Shown here one piece after another: positions 38,270 to 42,911 of a DNA stretch of 64,000 nucleotides; the first letter of the stretch is position 1, and every line of letters starts with the position of its first letter. Source of the DNA: Candidatus Rokuibacteriota bacterium (lineage in GTDB: Bacteria; Methylomirabilota; Methylomirabilia; Rokubacteriales; CSP1-6); the NCBI GenBank assembly GCA_003220685.1, contig QHTE01000045.1, positions 68,989 to 132,988 on the forward strand, in the 5' to 3' direction. The position numbers and the translations under genes were made by a program. The notes beneath the pieces are model-generated. The model searched no databases and was not told the origin of the DNA. It saw nothing but the letters and a program-made list of their open reading frames with translations.

Positions 38270-38300
38270 GCCGCTCGGCGCGCGGCCGCGGCCGGCTCAG
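38266..38300. terminator. Inverted repeat spanning two convergent stop codons
   Basis: CTGAGCCG (38266-38273) pairs with CGGCTCAG (38293-38300). The TGA of the crotonase gene is in the left arm and the TGA of the RidA-repeat gene in the right arm. The 19-base loop is itself GC-rich and palindromic (GCGCGGCCGCGGCCG). Confidence 0.45.
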
Positions 38301-39544
38301 GGCACGGCCGCGATGAGATCGATCTCCACGAGGGTGCCGGGCACCAGCAGGCCGGTCGTGCCCACGCTCGTGCGCGGCGGCGGTACGGGGAAGAACTCTC
38401 GCCACGCCTCGTCGAAGCCGGCGAAGTTGGCGAGGTCGGTGTGGAACACCTGGGCCTTGACGACCTGGTCGAGCGAGGTGCCGGCGGCCTTGAACGTCTT
38501 CGCCAGATTTTCGAGCACATAGCGCGTCTGTCGCTGGATGCCCGAGCCGTAGAACGGAAACGCGGGGTCGACGCGCGCCTCGCGGGGCACGCCGGTCTGG
38601 TAGTCGCTCGCGATCTGACCCGCCGCGAACACGAGCTCGCCGACCCGCGTCGCCGGCGTGTAGTGCGCGAGCGGCCGGGGGATATCGGGCACCGATATCG
38701 ACTGCGCTCGGGCCGACGGAAGTGCCGCGATCAGATCGATCTCGACCAGCGTGTCCTTGACCAGGAGCCCGGTCGTGCCGACCGTCGTCCGCGGCGGCGG
38801 CGACGGGAAAAACTCGCGCCAGACTTCGTCGAACGCGAAGAAGTTGTTCAGGTCGGTGTGGAACACCTGGGCCTTGACGACGCGATCCAGCGACGTGCCG
38901 GCCGCCTCGAAGGTGCGCGCCAGGTTTTCGAGCACGTAGCGCGTCTGGCGCTTGATGTCGGATCCGTAGTACGGAAACTCCGGATCGACGCGCGCTTCCC
39001 GCGGTACGCCCGTCTTGAAATCGCTCGCGAGCTGACCGGCCGCGAAGACGAGATCACCCGCCACGACCGCCTCGGAGTAATTCGCCAGCGGCCGCGGTCC
39101 GCTCGACTGGACCACGCGCGCGGCCGCCCGCGGCATCGCGGCGGTGAGATCGACCTCGACGAGACAGCCCGGGACCAGGAGCCCGCTCGTGCCGATCGTC
39201 GTCCGCGGCGGCGGCGTCGGGAAGAATTCGCGCCAGACCTCGTCGAACCCGCTGAAGTGCCGGAGGTCCGTGAGAAACACCTGCGCCTTCACGACGTGGC
39301 TCAGCGAGGTGCCGGCGGCCTCGAACGTCTTTTTCAGATTCGCCAGCACGTAGCGCGTCTGCTTCTTGATCGCCGAGCCGTAGTAGGGGAACGCCGGGTC
39401 GACGCGCGCCTCGGGCGCCACGCCCTGCTTGAAGTCGCTCGCGAGGTGGCCGGCCGCGAACACGAGGTCGCCGGCGCGCGCGGCCGGCGTGTAGCTCGCC
39501 AGCGGCTGCGGGATGGTGGGTACGGAAATGTCGACCCTGGGCAC
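38297..39544 (-). CDS. Triple-RidA protein (three tandem YjgF/RidA domains)
   Basis: A 415-residue protein made of three consecutive RidA domains, residues about 8-137, 147-276 and 283-415. Each contains AGDLVFAAG/GELVFAAGQ, ARVDPxFPxYGS, QTRYVLxNLxxTFxAAGTSL, VVKAQVFxTDL, FDExWREFFP and PPPRTxxGTxGLL. The catalytic-type Arg is kept in all three (about 114, 252, 391), as is the acidic residue in LVEVDL/LVEIDL (about 130, 268, 407). Ordinary RidA (about 130 residues) is a homotrimer that deaminates reactive enamine/imine intermediates. Here a single chain could form the whole trimer. The GTG start is four bases after the UGSC selenoprotein stop, so the gene ends a three-gene operon. Domains 2 and 3 are the more alike. 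Confidence 0.92.
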   Translation of the reverse strand: MPRVDISVPTIPQPLASYTPAARAGDLVFAAGHLASDFKQGVAPEARVDPAFPYYGSAIKKQTRYVLANLKKTFEAAGTSLSHVVKAQVFLTDLRHFSGFDEVWREFFPTPPPRTTIGTSGLLVPGCLVEVDLTAAMPRAAARVVQSSGPRPLANYSEAVVAGDLVFAAGQLASDFKTGVPREARVDPEFPYYGSDIKRQTRYVLENLARTFEAAGTSLDRVVKAQVFHTDLNNFFAFDEVWREFFPSPPPRTTVGTTGLLVKDTLVEIDLIAALPSARAQSISVPDIPRPLAHYTPATRVGELVFAAGQIASDYQTGVPREARVDPAFPFYGSGIQRQTRYVLENLAKTFKAAGTSLDQVVKAQVFHTDLANFAGFDEAWREFFPVPPPRTSVGTTGLLVPGTLVEIDLIAAVP

Positions 39545-39548
39545 GCTC

Positions 39549-40079
39549 TCAATCGCGGACGCGCAGGAGTGCCAGGACCGCCTCCACCAGCCGATCGGCG
39601 CGCGCGTCGAGCTCCTTGTCGTCGAGATTGGCGATCGGATGGGGCATGTCGAGGAAGCGGTAGCCCGGCAGGCCCCAACTGGTCGCCATCGCCTCGCCGG
39701 TCGGGCGGAAGGGCTCCGTCACGATGGCGATGGCGGGCACGCCCACCCGCTCGAACAGGATCGCGTCGAGCACACTGCTCGACGAGCAGGACCCTCAGTC
39801 CCCGATGCCGGAGACGACGAAGTCCGCCTGCGATCGCAGTGCCTCGACTGACACCTCGTCGACCTCGTGGCTGGGCGAGCGCTTGCGCACCATGCGGGCC
39901 ACGGTCATGCCGTGACGACGGCCGAGCCGATCGGCCAGGCGCCGCAGCAGCACGTCCGAATTGAACTTCGTGTTCTCGACCAGCCCGATCCGAAGCCCGT
40001 CGAGCCGCGCTGGCCGCGGCGCGACCTTGACGTCGCGGCCGACGGGCGGCGCCGTGGGATCGAAGAGGGGCGCGCTCAT
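39549..40079 (-). CDS. UGSC family selenoprotein (in-frame TGA = Sec)
   Basis: A 176-residue product if the TGA at 39795-39797 is read as selenocysteine. The first part (from ATG 40079) has GLRIGLVENTKFNSDVLLRRL and ends SQADFVVSGIGD. After the TGA the same frame continues GSCSSSSVLDAILFERVGVP to a normal stop at 39549. The residues around the TGA read GIGD-U-GSC, the U-G-S-C motif for which the UGSC (seleno)protein family is named. A stem-loop fitting the bacterial SECIS rules starts 11 bases after the TGA. The ATG overlaps the upstream 346-aa gene (ATGA) and the stop is four bases before the triple-RidA gene. Family members resemble redox or selenol enzymes of unknown substrate. Automated callers would wrongly split this gene. 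Confidence 0.85.
39765..39797 (-). promoter_or_regulatory. SECIS-like hairpin downstream of Sec TGA
   Basis: On the minus strand the TGA (39797-39795) is followed by 11 bases and then GTCGAGCA-GTG-TGCTCGAC, an 8-bp perfect stem with a GTG loop (39783-39765). The distance from TGA to loop is 19 bases, the loop is 3 nt and its first base is G. This satisfies the known bacterial SECIS pattern (16-37 bases, loop 3-14 nt, G in the first two positions). Confidence 0.7.
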
Positions 40080-41116
40080 GGAATCTCTCCTATCGGCGTC
40101 GTGACTGCCTTCGTCCATTTGTTGCCCCACCCGGGAAGACACGCCGACCAGCTACCCGCCCGGCCTCCGGCGCAGACGATCAGGATGTCGTCCGGGTTCT
40201 GGAAGAAATAGCGCCAGGTGGTCTCGTCGCCGGACATGGCCTCACCGGGCAAGCGGGCGGCCCCCTTCAGGTCGGCGACGCGACGGCGCGTGTGCTCGAT
40301 CAGGAAGCGCTGAACGTCCCGCCGCGCCCACCCGCTCTGGCGCAAGATTTCTGAGTGCTCCCCGGCCAGGACGACGAGCGCCTGGTTGAAGCCCTTCACG
40401 TTGGGAAGGCCGAGGTTGCAGAGCGCGTCGGCGAAGCACCTCAGGAGCGGCTCCGGTTCGGCGGCGAGCTGGTTGTAGACCTGGTAGAGGCTGTTCGAGG
40501 CGAACACGGTCACGGCGCTCTGCTCGGGGCGCAGCCCCCGCGCGACGTGGAACGGCTCCCAGGGCAGATCGTCGGCGCGCTCGGCGAAGCAGAACGAGTA
40601 CTTGCCCGGATTGCCGAGCGCGGCGCGATCGAGCAGCCCGGGCCGCGCTTGCATGACGTTCATCATCACCAGGCGCACGGCCCGGCCGATCGTCGCGTTG
40701 GGCCGCCACCCCTGCCCGAAGGCGTTGTTGCCCGAGTTCAGTCCGATGCGCCGCGCGACGGGACCGTTGACGATCAGCACCATCGCCGAGCCGCCCGTGC
40801 TGGACGCGGGTCCGTGATACGCGAAGTCGGGATGACAGAGCCCGCGGATCGCGGCGACCACCACCGGCATGTACTCCGGCCGGCAGCCCGCGAGGACCGC
40901 GTTGATCGCGACCTTCTCGGCGATCACCACGGTGTTCCGGCCTTCGATCTCGCCGAGAACCTCGTCGCGCCGCAGCGCGGCGCCGGCCAGCATCTCGGCC
41001 ACCGACTTCTCCGTCGGCGGCACGACGGGCAGGCCGTCGGTCCAGCCGCGCTCGAAGTAAGCCTCGATCAGGCTCGCGGGATCGGGCTCGGCGGTGGGTG
41101 ACACGCTCGGTATCAT
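40076..41116 (-). CDS. Conserved hypothetical protein upstream of UGSC selenoprotein
   Basis: A 346-residue soluble protein, first gene of the operon. ATG 41116 follows a GGGAGGCGGT ribosome-binding site. Notable segments are WTDGLPVVPPTEKSVAEMLAG, IEGRNTVVIAEKVAINAVLAGC, a Gly/Asn-rich block (STGGSAMVLIVNGPVARRIG and NSGNNAFGQGWRPNATIGRA) and a C-terminal DDILIVCAGGRAGSWSACLPGWG with two Cys. I do not recognise a characterised family. Gene order (4-bp overlap with the UGSC gene) points to a shared reaction. The two C-terminal Cys might interact with the selenol partner; that is speculation. Confidence 0.78.
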   Translation of the reverse strand: MIPSVSPTAEPDPASLIEAYFERGWTDGLPVVPPTEKSVAEMLAGAALRRDEVLGEIEGRNTVVIAEKVAINAVLAGCRPEYMPVVVAAIRGLCHPDFAYHGPASSTGGSAMVLIVNGPVARRIGLNSGNNAFGQGWRPNATIGRAVRLVMMNVMQARPGLLDRAALGNPGKYSFCFAERADDLPWEPFHVARGLRPEQSAVTVFASNSLYQVYNQLAAEPEPLLRCFADALCNLGLPNVKGFNQALVVLAGEHSEILRQSGWARRDVQRFLIEHTRRRVADLKGAARLPGEAMSGDETTWRYFFQNPDDILIVCAGGRAGSWSACLPGWGNKWTKAVTTPIGEIP

Positions 41117-41354: not shown

Positions 41355-42911
41355 TCACCGCCGGCTTCGGCCCTTCCGCCGCTCGATCGCCGCACCCCAG
41401 CTCGCGAGGAACGCGTTGATGAACGCGTGCTCCTTCGCTGGATCGACCGCCAGTGGGGCCAGCGCCAGCGCGACCGCGAGAGCCGTGTGATATCCCTCCG
41501 AGCGAGACGCGGCGGCCCGACGATACGCCGGGTGCGCTTCGTTCACCCATACGGTCGAGTCGACCAGGCGCCCGAGCTCGGGATCGTCGGGGCGCGCCTC
41601 GAACCCGATGCCGAGTCCGTAACGCACCGGGCGACGCGTACGCCCATCGTCGACGATATGGGCCGACGCCGCGGACGCCCGCTCGGACGATGCGGGCGCC
41701 GTCTCGTGCGCGGCCGAGTCGATGCCTGTCGTCGGCGCCGGCGCGCCGGCAACGCTCGCTTCGGGCAGCGGGAGCGGGGCGCCGCTCGACCCCGGCCTTC
41801 CGATCGCTGGGCCGGCCGCCAGGCGACGCTGGCCGCCCGCGCGCTGCTCGACCAGTGGCGCGAGCAGCGGGAACTCGTCGGCCAGGTCCGCGAGCACCGC
41901 CTCGAGATCCCGTTCGATCGGGCGGGCGGCTCGACGGCGGGCGCGCTCGGCCGACTCGCCGACATCGCCCCAGAGACCGAGCTGATGCGCGACGGCCTCC
42001 TGGATCGCCTTGCGGTACGCGAGGTAGGTCGCGCCGCGCGCGCCGGCGCGGATAAAGTCCGCTTTGTTCAGGGTGAGGCTCTCGGCGAGCGCCGGCACCT
42101 CGATCAAGCCCGCGACACGATCGGCCCCCGCCGGCGCCAGCCCGAGCCAATCCCAGCCGCGCCGGATCACCTTGCCGAACGTGCTGATCGCGACGCCGCG
42201 GAGCGCCTCCGGTAGCGGCTCGGCCGCGCGCACGAGATAGCCGGCGGCCGCCGGGCGGCGCTTGCGCCCGACGCGAATCGAGAGCTGGGCAACCTCGGGC
42301 CCCTCCGCGCCCTGGGAATCGAGGGCCCGCCCGTTCAGCACGACCGCGACGCCACGTGGATACTGCTCGCGCAGAATCGTGGCGAGCGCCGGATCGAAGA
42401 GCGGCTGAAACGCTCTGCGCAACACGCTCTCGACGAACCCCGGATCGACCAGCGGCGAGAGCGCGGTCTCGGGCACGAGCCGGACGGCCGTCCCACGCGA
42501 GGGCACGCGGCCCTCCGGCACGATCCAGCGCCAGGGCGCCCGGTTGCGGGAGGCCAGCCGCCATGACGACGCCACGTGGTGTCTGCCACGTCGTGTCTCC
42601 GTGACCACTTCCGTGCAGACCAGGAGCGCGACTTTGATGCCGACGCCCGCGAAACCGATGCCGTCGCCACGCGTCTTGGCGCTGGCCGCGACGTCGTGGT
42701 AACGCGCCAGCTCGCGCCGCCGCATGCCGGCCCCGTCGTCCACGATCGTGAGCGCCGGCGCGGCCGGGTCGGTGGTGATGACGATCGTCGCGGCGCTCGA
42801 GTCGAGCGAGTTCGCGACGATCTCGGTGAGGATCGTCCCCTCGGTGGAGCCGGGGTACGCGTCGCGCAGGTCTTCCAGCAGGTGGAGCAGGTCGACCCGC
42901 GTCTCGCCCAC
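41355..42911 (-). CDS. GHKL-type ATPase (Hsp90/MORC/MutL-like fold)
   Basis: A 518-residue protein. The N-terminal Bergerat ATP-binding fold has the N box EIVANSLDSSA (Glu 30, Asn 34), G1 box VDDGAGM (Asp 58/59) and G2 region GDGIGFAGVGIKVALL (about 84-93), as in Hsp90, MORC and MutL rather than histidine kinases; no HisKA domain is present. A transducer-like middle (about 120-300: LREQYPRGVAVVLNGRALDS, TLNKADFIRAGARG) follows, then an Ala/Pro-rich linker and a short helical C-terminus. GTG 42911 is 13 bases after the cupin stop, so it belongs to the glnS-cupin operon. Role unknown; related stand-alone ATPases are found in chaperone and defence contexts. Confidence 0.72.
   Translation of the reverse strand: MGETRVDLLHLLEDLRDAYPGSTEGTILTEIVANSLDSSAATIVITTDPAAPALTIVDDGAGMRRRELARYHDVAASAKTRGDGIGFAGVGIKVALLVCTEVVTETRRGRHHVASSWRLASRNRAPWRWIVPEGRVPSRGTAVRLVPETALSPLVDPGFVESVLRRAFQPLFDPALATILREQYPRGVAVVLNGRALDSQGAEGPEVAQLSIRVGRKRRPAAAGYLVRAAEPLPEALRGVAISTFGKVIRRGWDWLGLAPAGADRVAGLIEVPALAESLTLNKADFIRAGARGATYLAYRKAIQEAVAHQLGLWGDVGESAERARRRAARPIERDLEAVLADLADEFPLLAPLVEQRAGGQRRLAAGPAIGRPGSSGAPLPLPEASVAGAPAPTTGIDSAAHETAPASSERASAASAHIVDDGRTRRPVRYGLGIGFEARPDDPELGRLVDSTVWVNEAHPAYRRAAASRSEGYHTALAVALALAPLAVDPAKEHAFINAFLASWGAAIERRKGRSRR

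Follow-up and report, generated by a model that had tools for sequence, protein, structure and literature searches.

An open reading frame at positions 39549-40079, on the minus strand of a 64,000-nucleotide stretch of Candidatus Rokuibacteriota DNA (the window), is interrupted by a single in-frame TGA that is followed closely by a SECIS-like hairpin. From this frame we infer insertion of selenocysteine (Sec), and its product is almost certainly a selenoprotein. Judged by its sequence, the protein is a new member of the UGSC family, which has been known in print since at least 2008. The original prediction for this DNA had described an in-frame TGA with a hairpin, which was confirmed, and had interpreted the gene as a UGSC selenoprotein, which our analysis supported. 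The complete statement, that a UGSC selenoprotein decoded with the help of SelB, tRNA-Sec and the hairpin would work together with an adjacent partner protein as a two-component reductase of the GrdB/PrdB type, has in our judgement an even chance of being correct.

The in-frame TGA and the downstream hairpin

The frame runs over 177 codons from an ATG, preceded by the likely ribosome-binding sequence AGGAGAG, to a TGA terminator, and encodes 176 residues. Its only internal TGA is codon 95 (39795-39797, minus strand), the predicted Sec of U-G-S-C, and relatives carry TGA at the same site. The peptide surrounding this codon reads GIGD-U-GSCSSSS, so that both the coherent protein broken by one TGA and the U-G-S-C signature were found as described beforehand. 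Under the ordinary code (table 11) the frame falls into two pieces, again as anticipated for standard gene calling. The in-frame TGA and the split reading are also what speaks for a pseudogene or a sequencing error, in which the TGA would be a real stop in a broken gene. We rejected this explanation, whose probability is negligible, because the TGA is shared across relatives and paralogues, with the same codon in place in 68 distinct stretches and at each of the genome's eight UGSC loci, and because the hairpin co-varies; the genome, moreover, has a Sec system. The codon bias also carries on beyond the TGA, with third-position G+C of 0.89 upstream and 0.91 downstream and the same codon-position bias in both halves of the frame.

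The read-through protein matched the NCBIfam model NF041046 'UGSC family (seleno)protein' at 142.7-143.2 bits (cut-off 125) and the Pfam model PF24696 'UGSC' at 185 bits (cut-off 25), each over nearly its whole length. The original prediction had made its case depend on homologues being conserved past the TGA and had proposed an alignment of the family as a check; both flanks proved to be conserved, and the site between them holds Sec or Cys. The codon-95 site is TGA in 68 distinct stretches (window included) and TGC or TGT in 8, and all 8 of these DNA-verified Cys forms come from actinobacterial records (Microbacterium, Nesterenkonia, Frigoribacterium and Streptosporangiaceae). The counts are based on 106 UGSC domains. 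One of them, L017, failed the motif pattern and was dropped before counting, and merging of identical stretches reduced the remaining 105 to 76; L018, which scored below the threshold, was never part of the 106, and both loci are reported separately below. Cys-bearing proteins taken from databases were excluded from the count of Cys homologues, as their coding DNA was not inspected and a U is rendered as C by the tools. In a 49-row tree, the six DNA-verified Cys rows included formed one group with four database proteins (95/87). The nearest named relatives of the window protein belong to Candidatus Rokuibacteriota assemblies (83-84% identity), and TGA forms were also present in records named Binatota, SAR324, Tectomicrobia and Entotheonella.

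Bacterial SECIS elements are hairpins located just 3' of the UGA and obey rules of spacing and loop sequence. The SECIS-like hairpin of the window (39764-39784, minus strand) lies 10 nt after the TGA, and its 9-bp stem, which begins at the 11th base, pairs 39784-39776 with 39772-39764 around a GTG loop (39773-39775), the sequence being CGTCGAGCA-GTG-TGCTCGACG. The GTG loop was present as predicted; the stem had been given as 8 bp and was found to contain nine pairs. The folding energy was not exceptional compared to dinucleotide shuffles (z -0.99; 31 of 200 folded as well), and the argument for the hairpin is therefore built on conservation. Among synonymous-codon versions of the window stretch, all nine pairs were kept in 120 of 20,000 and the folding was as stable in 26 of 1,000.

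All nine pairs were present in 58 of the 68 distinct TGA-bearing stretches (window included), and the other ten had 7 or 8. The mean over the 68 stretches was 8.72 pairs compared to 5.66 in synonymous shuffles, the highest mean among 1000 such shuffles being 6.25, and on this conservation we rejected a chance hairpin. In contrast, the 8 stretches with a Cys codon averaged 4.25 pairs, which does not exceed the value of their own shuffles (5.50). Thus, the conserved, co-varying stem is absent from the Cys forms. The loop was always GTN in the 68 TGA stretches (58 GTG, 5 GTA, 3 GTT and 2 GTC). One UGSC type has the stem letters CGTCGRGCA/TGCTCGACG, and a second type makes the same stem of other letters, CGTCGTGGA/TCCACGACG, within which a further G-C to A-T exchange occurred (L061, L069).

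The hairpin alignment drew on 53 of the 68 TGA stretches, which over 48 nt comprise 49 different sequences. Across these 49 rows 96.1% of the cells paired, compared to 24-47% once the 3' arm had been slid, and cells changed on both sides numbered 31 compared to 8.9 in shuffles. The number of pairs with changes on both sides was not clearly above shuffles (3 vs 2.2), nor were further pair types in excess (5 vs 5.2). A covariance model built from rows that included the window copy gave this copy 72.8 bits and the next best site of the window 17 bits. The search of the genome, which scored 150 of 16,864 candidates, gave 54-75 bits to six of its eight UGSC loci, all six among the rows of the model, and 27 bits to the next match. 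An Rfam search around the UGSC gene returned nothing near a gathering score.

The canonical stem was not found at the other two UGSC loci of the genome, L017 (H-U-STC) and L018 (A-U-GSC), which are divergent UGSC-partner fusions. Sec decoding at these two loci, if any, would need another signal.

Selenocysteine machinery, gene copies and the partner protein

The genome assembly containing the window (6.1 Mb in 137 contigs, 88% complete) carries all four sel genes that the original prediction had named for a search. selA scored 588 bits for TIGR00474; selB (363 bits, cut-off 242) overlaps the end of selA, and tRNA-Sec, the selC product (69.8 bits, gathering score 47), is encoded on the same contig as both. 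selD scored 335 bits and contains one TGA. This selD (L105, G000:C19:189837-190781), in which the TGA is read in ASCAG-U-ASK, is likely a Sec-dependent selenophosphate synthetase.

Eight UGSC loci, each with one TGA, were identified in the window's genome. UGSC genes occurred in 72 of the 95 genomes of the phylum, in 1 to 12 copies each, and every UGSC row among the matches listed for the phylum had the TGA. Each of the 57 genomes of the window's own family (f1) carried at least 2 copies, with up to 12 in G058. According to an excerpt of a 2026 review, one Methylomirabilota assembly has 63 predicted selenoprotein genes (PMC13188914), and the selenoprotein wealth of Methylomirabilota is thus already in print; no report of the UGSC expansion in the phylum was found in the literature searched. 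selA was over its cut-off in 64 of the 72 UGSC genomes of the phylum and below it or absent in 8, mostly incomplete ones, with exceptions that included G087 (listed as 100% complete) and G060 and G052 (both listed as 95%), the last carrying a selA fragment. Outside the phylum, selA was present in 4 of 4 searched genomes with TGA-bearing UGSC. Six genomes with Cys-bearing UGSC were searched, a set without loci L093 and L098; two had selA, three gave no match and one had sub-threshold pieces. This last genome, of Nesterenkonia pannonica (L097), holds two such pieces (G097:C1:834615-835723), one with a TAA, and its UGSC gene is of the Cys form; the pieces are possibly the relic of a lost Sec system.

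Immediately upstream of the UGSC gene lies the gene of a partner protein of 346 residues (40076-41116, minus strand), for which no family of Pfam or NCBIfam scored over its cut-off. The stop codon of this gene and the UGSC start overlap in the sequence ATGA (40076-40079), and the two genes are therefore probably translated together. Nearly all scored database candidates (7,998 of 8,000) were related to the partner. In the 69 UGSC domains of loci L049-L104 and the window, the partner was adjacent or fused (within 350 nt, same strand) in 60, just upstream of UGSC in 42 and downstream in 18. Twelve of the 18 downstream cases were single-frame fusions, in which neither the partner nor the stretch joining the domains had another TGA. 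The remaining nine domains had no partner nearby; two of them lie by a contig end, and for several (L058, L096, L097) a partner is encoded a few kb away. Single-frame fusions also make up five of the eight UGSC loci in the genome of the window (L013, L015-L018). Because the partner lies behind the TGA in the fusions, its synthesis from that start would require read-through. Fusion of UGSC to an unknown domain was already noted in 2008, in the passages seen of PMC2398784. We consider it very probable that UGSC acts with the partner, and the two may assemble into a single enzyme.

Pfam returned sub-threshold matches only for 36 partner rows. A deaminase-toxin C-terminal model (8 of the 36 rows, best E 0.0024, about 20 residues in the window protein) and designed TIM barrels in the PDB sequence search (about 50 residues, best E 0.00075) were both taken as chance matches. 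Cys78 of the partner is at least 90% conserved.

On the other side of the UGSC gene, an open reading frame with three Rid (L-PSP) domains (38297-39544, minus strand) begins 4 bases past the UGSC stop. A three-domain Rid protein beside UGSC was found at no other locus compared, its matches being confined to the window and the duplicate L012, and this protein, an imine deaminase, was dropped as a part of the system. Upstream of the partner, an open reading frame at 41355-42911 (minus strand) encodes a HATPase domain and has sub-threshold similarity to sacsin/MutL-type ATPases and to a BbrUII-type restriction enzyme. At related loci the surrounding genes encode, among others, hydrolases (amidohydrolases and alpha/beta hydrolases), dehydrogenases for alcohols and aldehydes, a CoA transferase and transporters. 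Clusters for this comparison were built from mechanically called open reading frames, some of them antisense or out of frame; these gene types recurred, with several types of transporter, yet no single substrate emerged. The neighbours fit a catabolic step acting on imported small molecules.

Kinship with GrdB and PrdB and a candidate reaction

The fold of the UGSC protein was predicted (pLDDT 93.8, pTM 0.88) as alternating strands and helices, strand-helix five times over, with Sec95 after strand 3, between the strand at residues 87-93 and the helix at 96-111. The predicted fold is Rossmann-like, unlike the thioredoxin-like fold that the marine metagenome paper, as far as its passages were seen, had suggested for UGSC (PMC2398784). 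Foldseek returned generic Rossmann-like matches only (TM near 0.45), and the PDB sequence search gave nothing convincing for UGSC. These results bear on the suggestion that the UGSC selenoprotein is a thioredoxin-like redox protein, such as a peroxide or disulfide reductase, for which the UxxC motif argues. The predicted alternating strand-helix sheet appears unlike a thioredoxin topology, and no thioredoxin chain appeared among the best 50 rows of either structure search, although such absence is not proof. Remote profile matches go to GrdB and PrdB instead, and catabolic enzymes and transporters neighbour related loci; we therefore regard a thioredoxin-like function as quite improbable.

Profile comparison pointed to kinship with the Sec-bearing subunits of glycine and D-proline reductases. 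Alignment of the 49 UGSC rows with 11 rokubacterial GrdB rows by hhalign gave 77% (E 2e-5), and 69% when rerun on the columns of the first row. The signal was strongest for nine rows of the GSAD-U-GSCTSW type (93.6%, E 2e-7) and weakest for the 38 rows of the window's own type (34.6%, E 4e-4), compared to 1.0% or less for controls with reversed or unrelated profiles. In the alignment Sec is matched with Sec and the helix behind it with its counterpart, and the HP motifs coincide. Leaving aside UGSC itself, the 49 rows most often hit the NCBIfam models of PrdB (14 rows) and GrdB TIGR01917 (8), followed in a shared third place by GrdF, a geranylgeranyl reductase and a MauG-like model (5 each). 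When eight UGSC relatives were scanned singly, five matched over the Sec region and three showed no match; a rokubacterial GrdB, conversely, matched the UGSC model over its Sec region at E 0.008. The GrdB and PrdB matches are far under the family cut-offs (at best 22 bits vs 602, and 16.4 bits vs 300, in the single scans), and the window protein itself matched no GrdB, GrdF, GrdH or PrdB model up to E 10.

The 49 UGSC rows gave no match to Pfam GRDB (PF07355); their best Pfam match besides UGSC was a glycosyltransferase model (2 of 49 rows, E 1e-4). The stretches that PF07355 matched in eleven GrdB loci contain no TGA, and one of them (L125) has a TAG; in all eleven, the TGA at the Sec site comes only later. 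It seems, then, that PF07355 stops short of Sec, a possible reason why the kinship escapes Pfam. Together, the controlled profile comparisons and the reciprocal family matches show remote homology, at profile level, between UGSC around Sec and the Sec-bearing C-terminal part of GrdB/PrdB, a relationship strongest for a sister type and weak for the type of the window. No statement linking UGSC with glycine reductase was found in the UGSC passages seen of papers naming both.

The GrdB-like genes of the phylum themselves (L116, L118-L125 and L127-L130, with L121 in the window's genome) carry an in-frame TGA (U-G-T/S) beyond the PF07355 stretch. In six of the nine loci folded, the minimum-energy fold contained a hairpin comparable to that of UGSC: its stem, 7 or 8 pairs long, starts at the 11th or 12th base after the TGA, and its loop begins with GG.

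Several residues of UGSC are conserved, some of them candidates for a catalytic role. Cys98 of the UxxC motif (39786-39788, minus strand), at least 90% conserved in the 49 rows, is the likely resolving thiol. In the N-T-K-F-N motif (39960-39974, minus strand), which may serve the substrate or the active site, N36, K38 and N40 are invariant in the same rows. In the His-Pro motif (39636-39641, minus strand), which aligns with the HP of GrdB, H147 is at least 90% conserved and P148 is invariant.

A mechanism can be proposed for UGSC and its partner by analogy with GrdB/PrdB-type enzymes. Passages on glycine and D-proline reductases state that Sec is thought to attack a carbon of the substrate and that a thiol then breaks the Se-C bond (PMC10298544), and an excerpt of another paper proposes C-F cleavage in fluoroacetate by a GrdB-type pair (PMC10838667). 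SelB and tRNA-Sec would decode the codon-95 TGA as Sec, aided by the hairpin 10 nt downstream. The partner would bind and activate a small substrate, and the selenolate of Sec95 would attack a C-N or similar bond, as in GrdB/PrdB; Cys98 would then resolve the selenoether intermediate, and a cellular dithiol would reduce the Sec95/Cys98 pair. Each paralogue may have its own substrate. Reductive cleavage of this type by UGSC is plausible, in our estimate slightly short of an even chance. The substrate-activating carbonyl of GrdE/PrdA-type enzymes is left unaccounted for by this scheme, because the partner showed no detectable kinship to GrdB and no NCBIfam match to the pyruvoyl proprotein (GrdE/PrdA) among 36 rows up to E 10.

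The same Sec or Cys nucleophile might alternatively serve UGSC and its partner in a non-reductive reaction, for example hydrolysis, a lyase reaction or the opening of a ring. By Foldseek, the partner weakly resembles class I fumarate hydratase (E 4.7e-5, TM 0.27-0.31) and cyclic amide hydrolases (E 5e-3), which points in this direction, as do the amidohydrolase, alcohol dehydrogenase and aldehyde dehydrogenase genes adjoining the actinobacterial Cys forms. The structural matches of the partner conflict with each other and were not used for function; VIA-align gave Z of at most 6.1 over 92 residues, which may reflect only a common arrangement, and the GrdB/PrdB kinship of UGSC points to reduction. 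We therefore consider a non-reductive reaction rather unlikely.

Returning to reductive cleavage, we tentatively propose, as a possibility on the doubtful side, that UGSC and its partner would constitute a third branch of GrdB/PrdB-type selenoenzymes. This branch would lie outside the anaerobic amino-acid fermenters and be diversified in substrate, with up to 12 copies per genome in soil and groundwater Rokubacteria and Cys versions in actinobacteria, and it would cleave C-N or C-X bonds of imported small molecules. UGSC has been recognized as abundant in metagenomes since 2008, and the GrdB/PrdB kinship, together with a nearly constant partner, gives a type of reaction to assay. Such a reading might explain the many selenoprotein genes kept by uncultured soil bacteria. 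The ordinary code splits the TGA-bearing UGSC genes in two, and no family name exists for the partner; the kinship, the constancy of the partner and the copy number are all worth following. The Cys versions from named actinobacteria could be made in E. coli without selenium machinery.

Comparison with known selenoprotein systems

UGSC was described in 2008 as a major selenoprotein family of marine metagenomes (passages of PMC2398784) and belongs, in the part seen of a 2026 review that lists it, among families whose functions are largely uncharacterised (PMC13188914). The window protein resembles the known family in its UxxC motif with Sec, in having Cys homologues and in the association of UGSC with an unnamed conserved domain, known as a fusion. 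It differs from the known description in being one of eight paralogues of a single genome, and from the other loci compared in adjoining the three-domain Rid protein.

PrdB (TIGR04483), like UGSC in the proposed reading, is a small Sec subunit of a multi-subunit enzyme according to the passages seen; it matched 14 of the 49 UGSC rows weakly (best E 0.0025), and its partner differs. The partner of UGSC is not recognisably GrdE, and UGSC scores against the GrdB-type models fall far short of the cut-offs. Compared to GrdB, GrdF and GrdH (PF07355, TIGR01917, TIGR01918), UGSC has no counterpart of roughly the first 330 residues of GrdB, while about 95 residues around and after Sec align, and GrdB and UGSC have in common the Sec, the helix that follows it and the 'G-[IV]-P' and 'HP' motifs.
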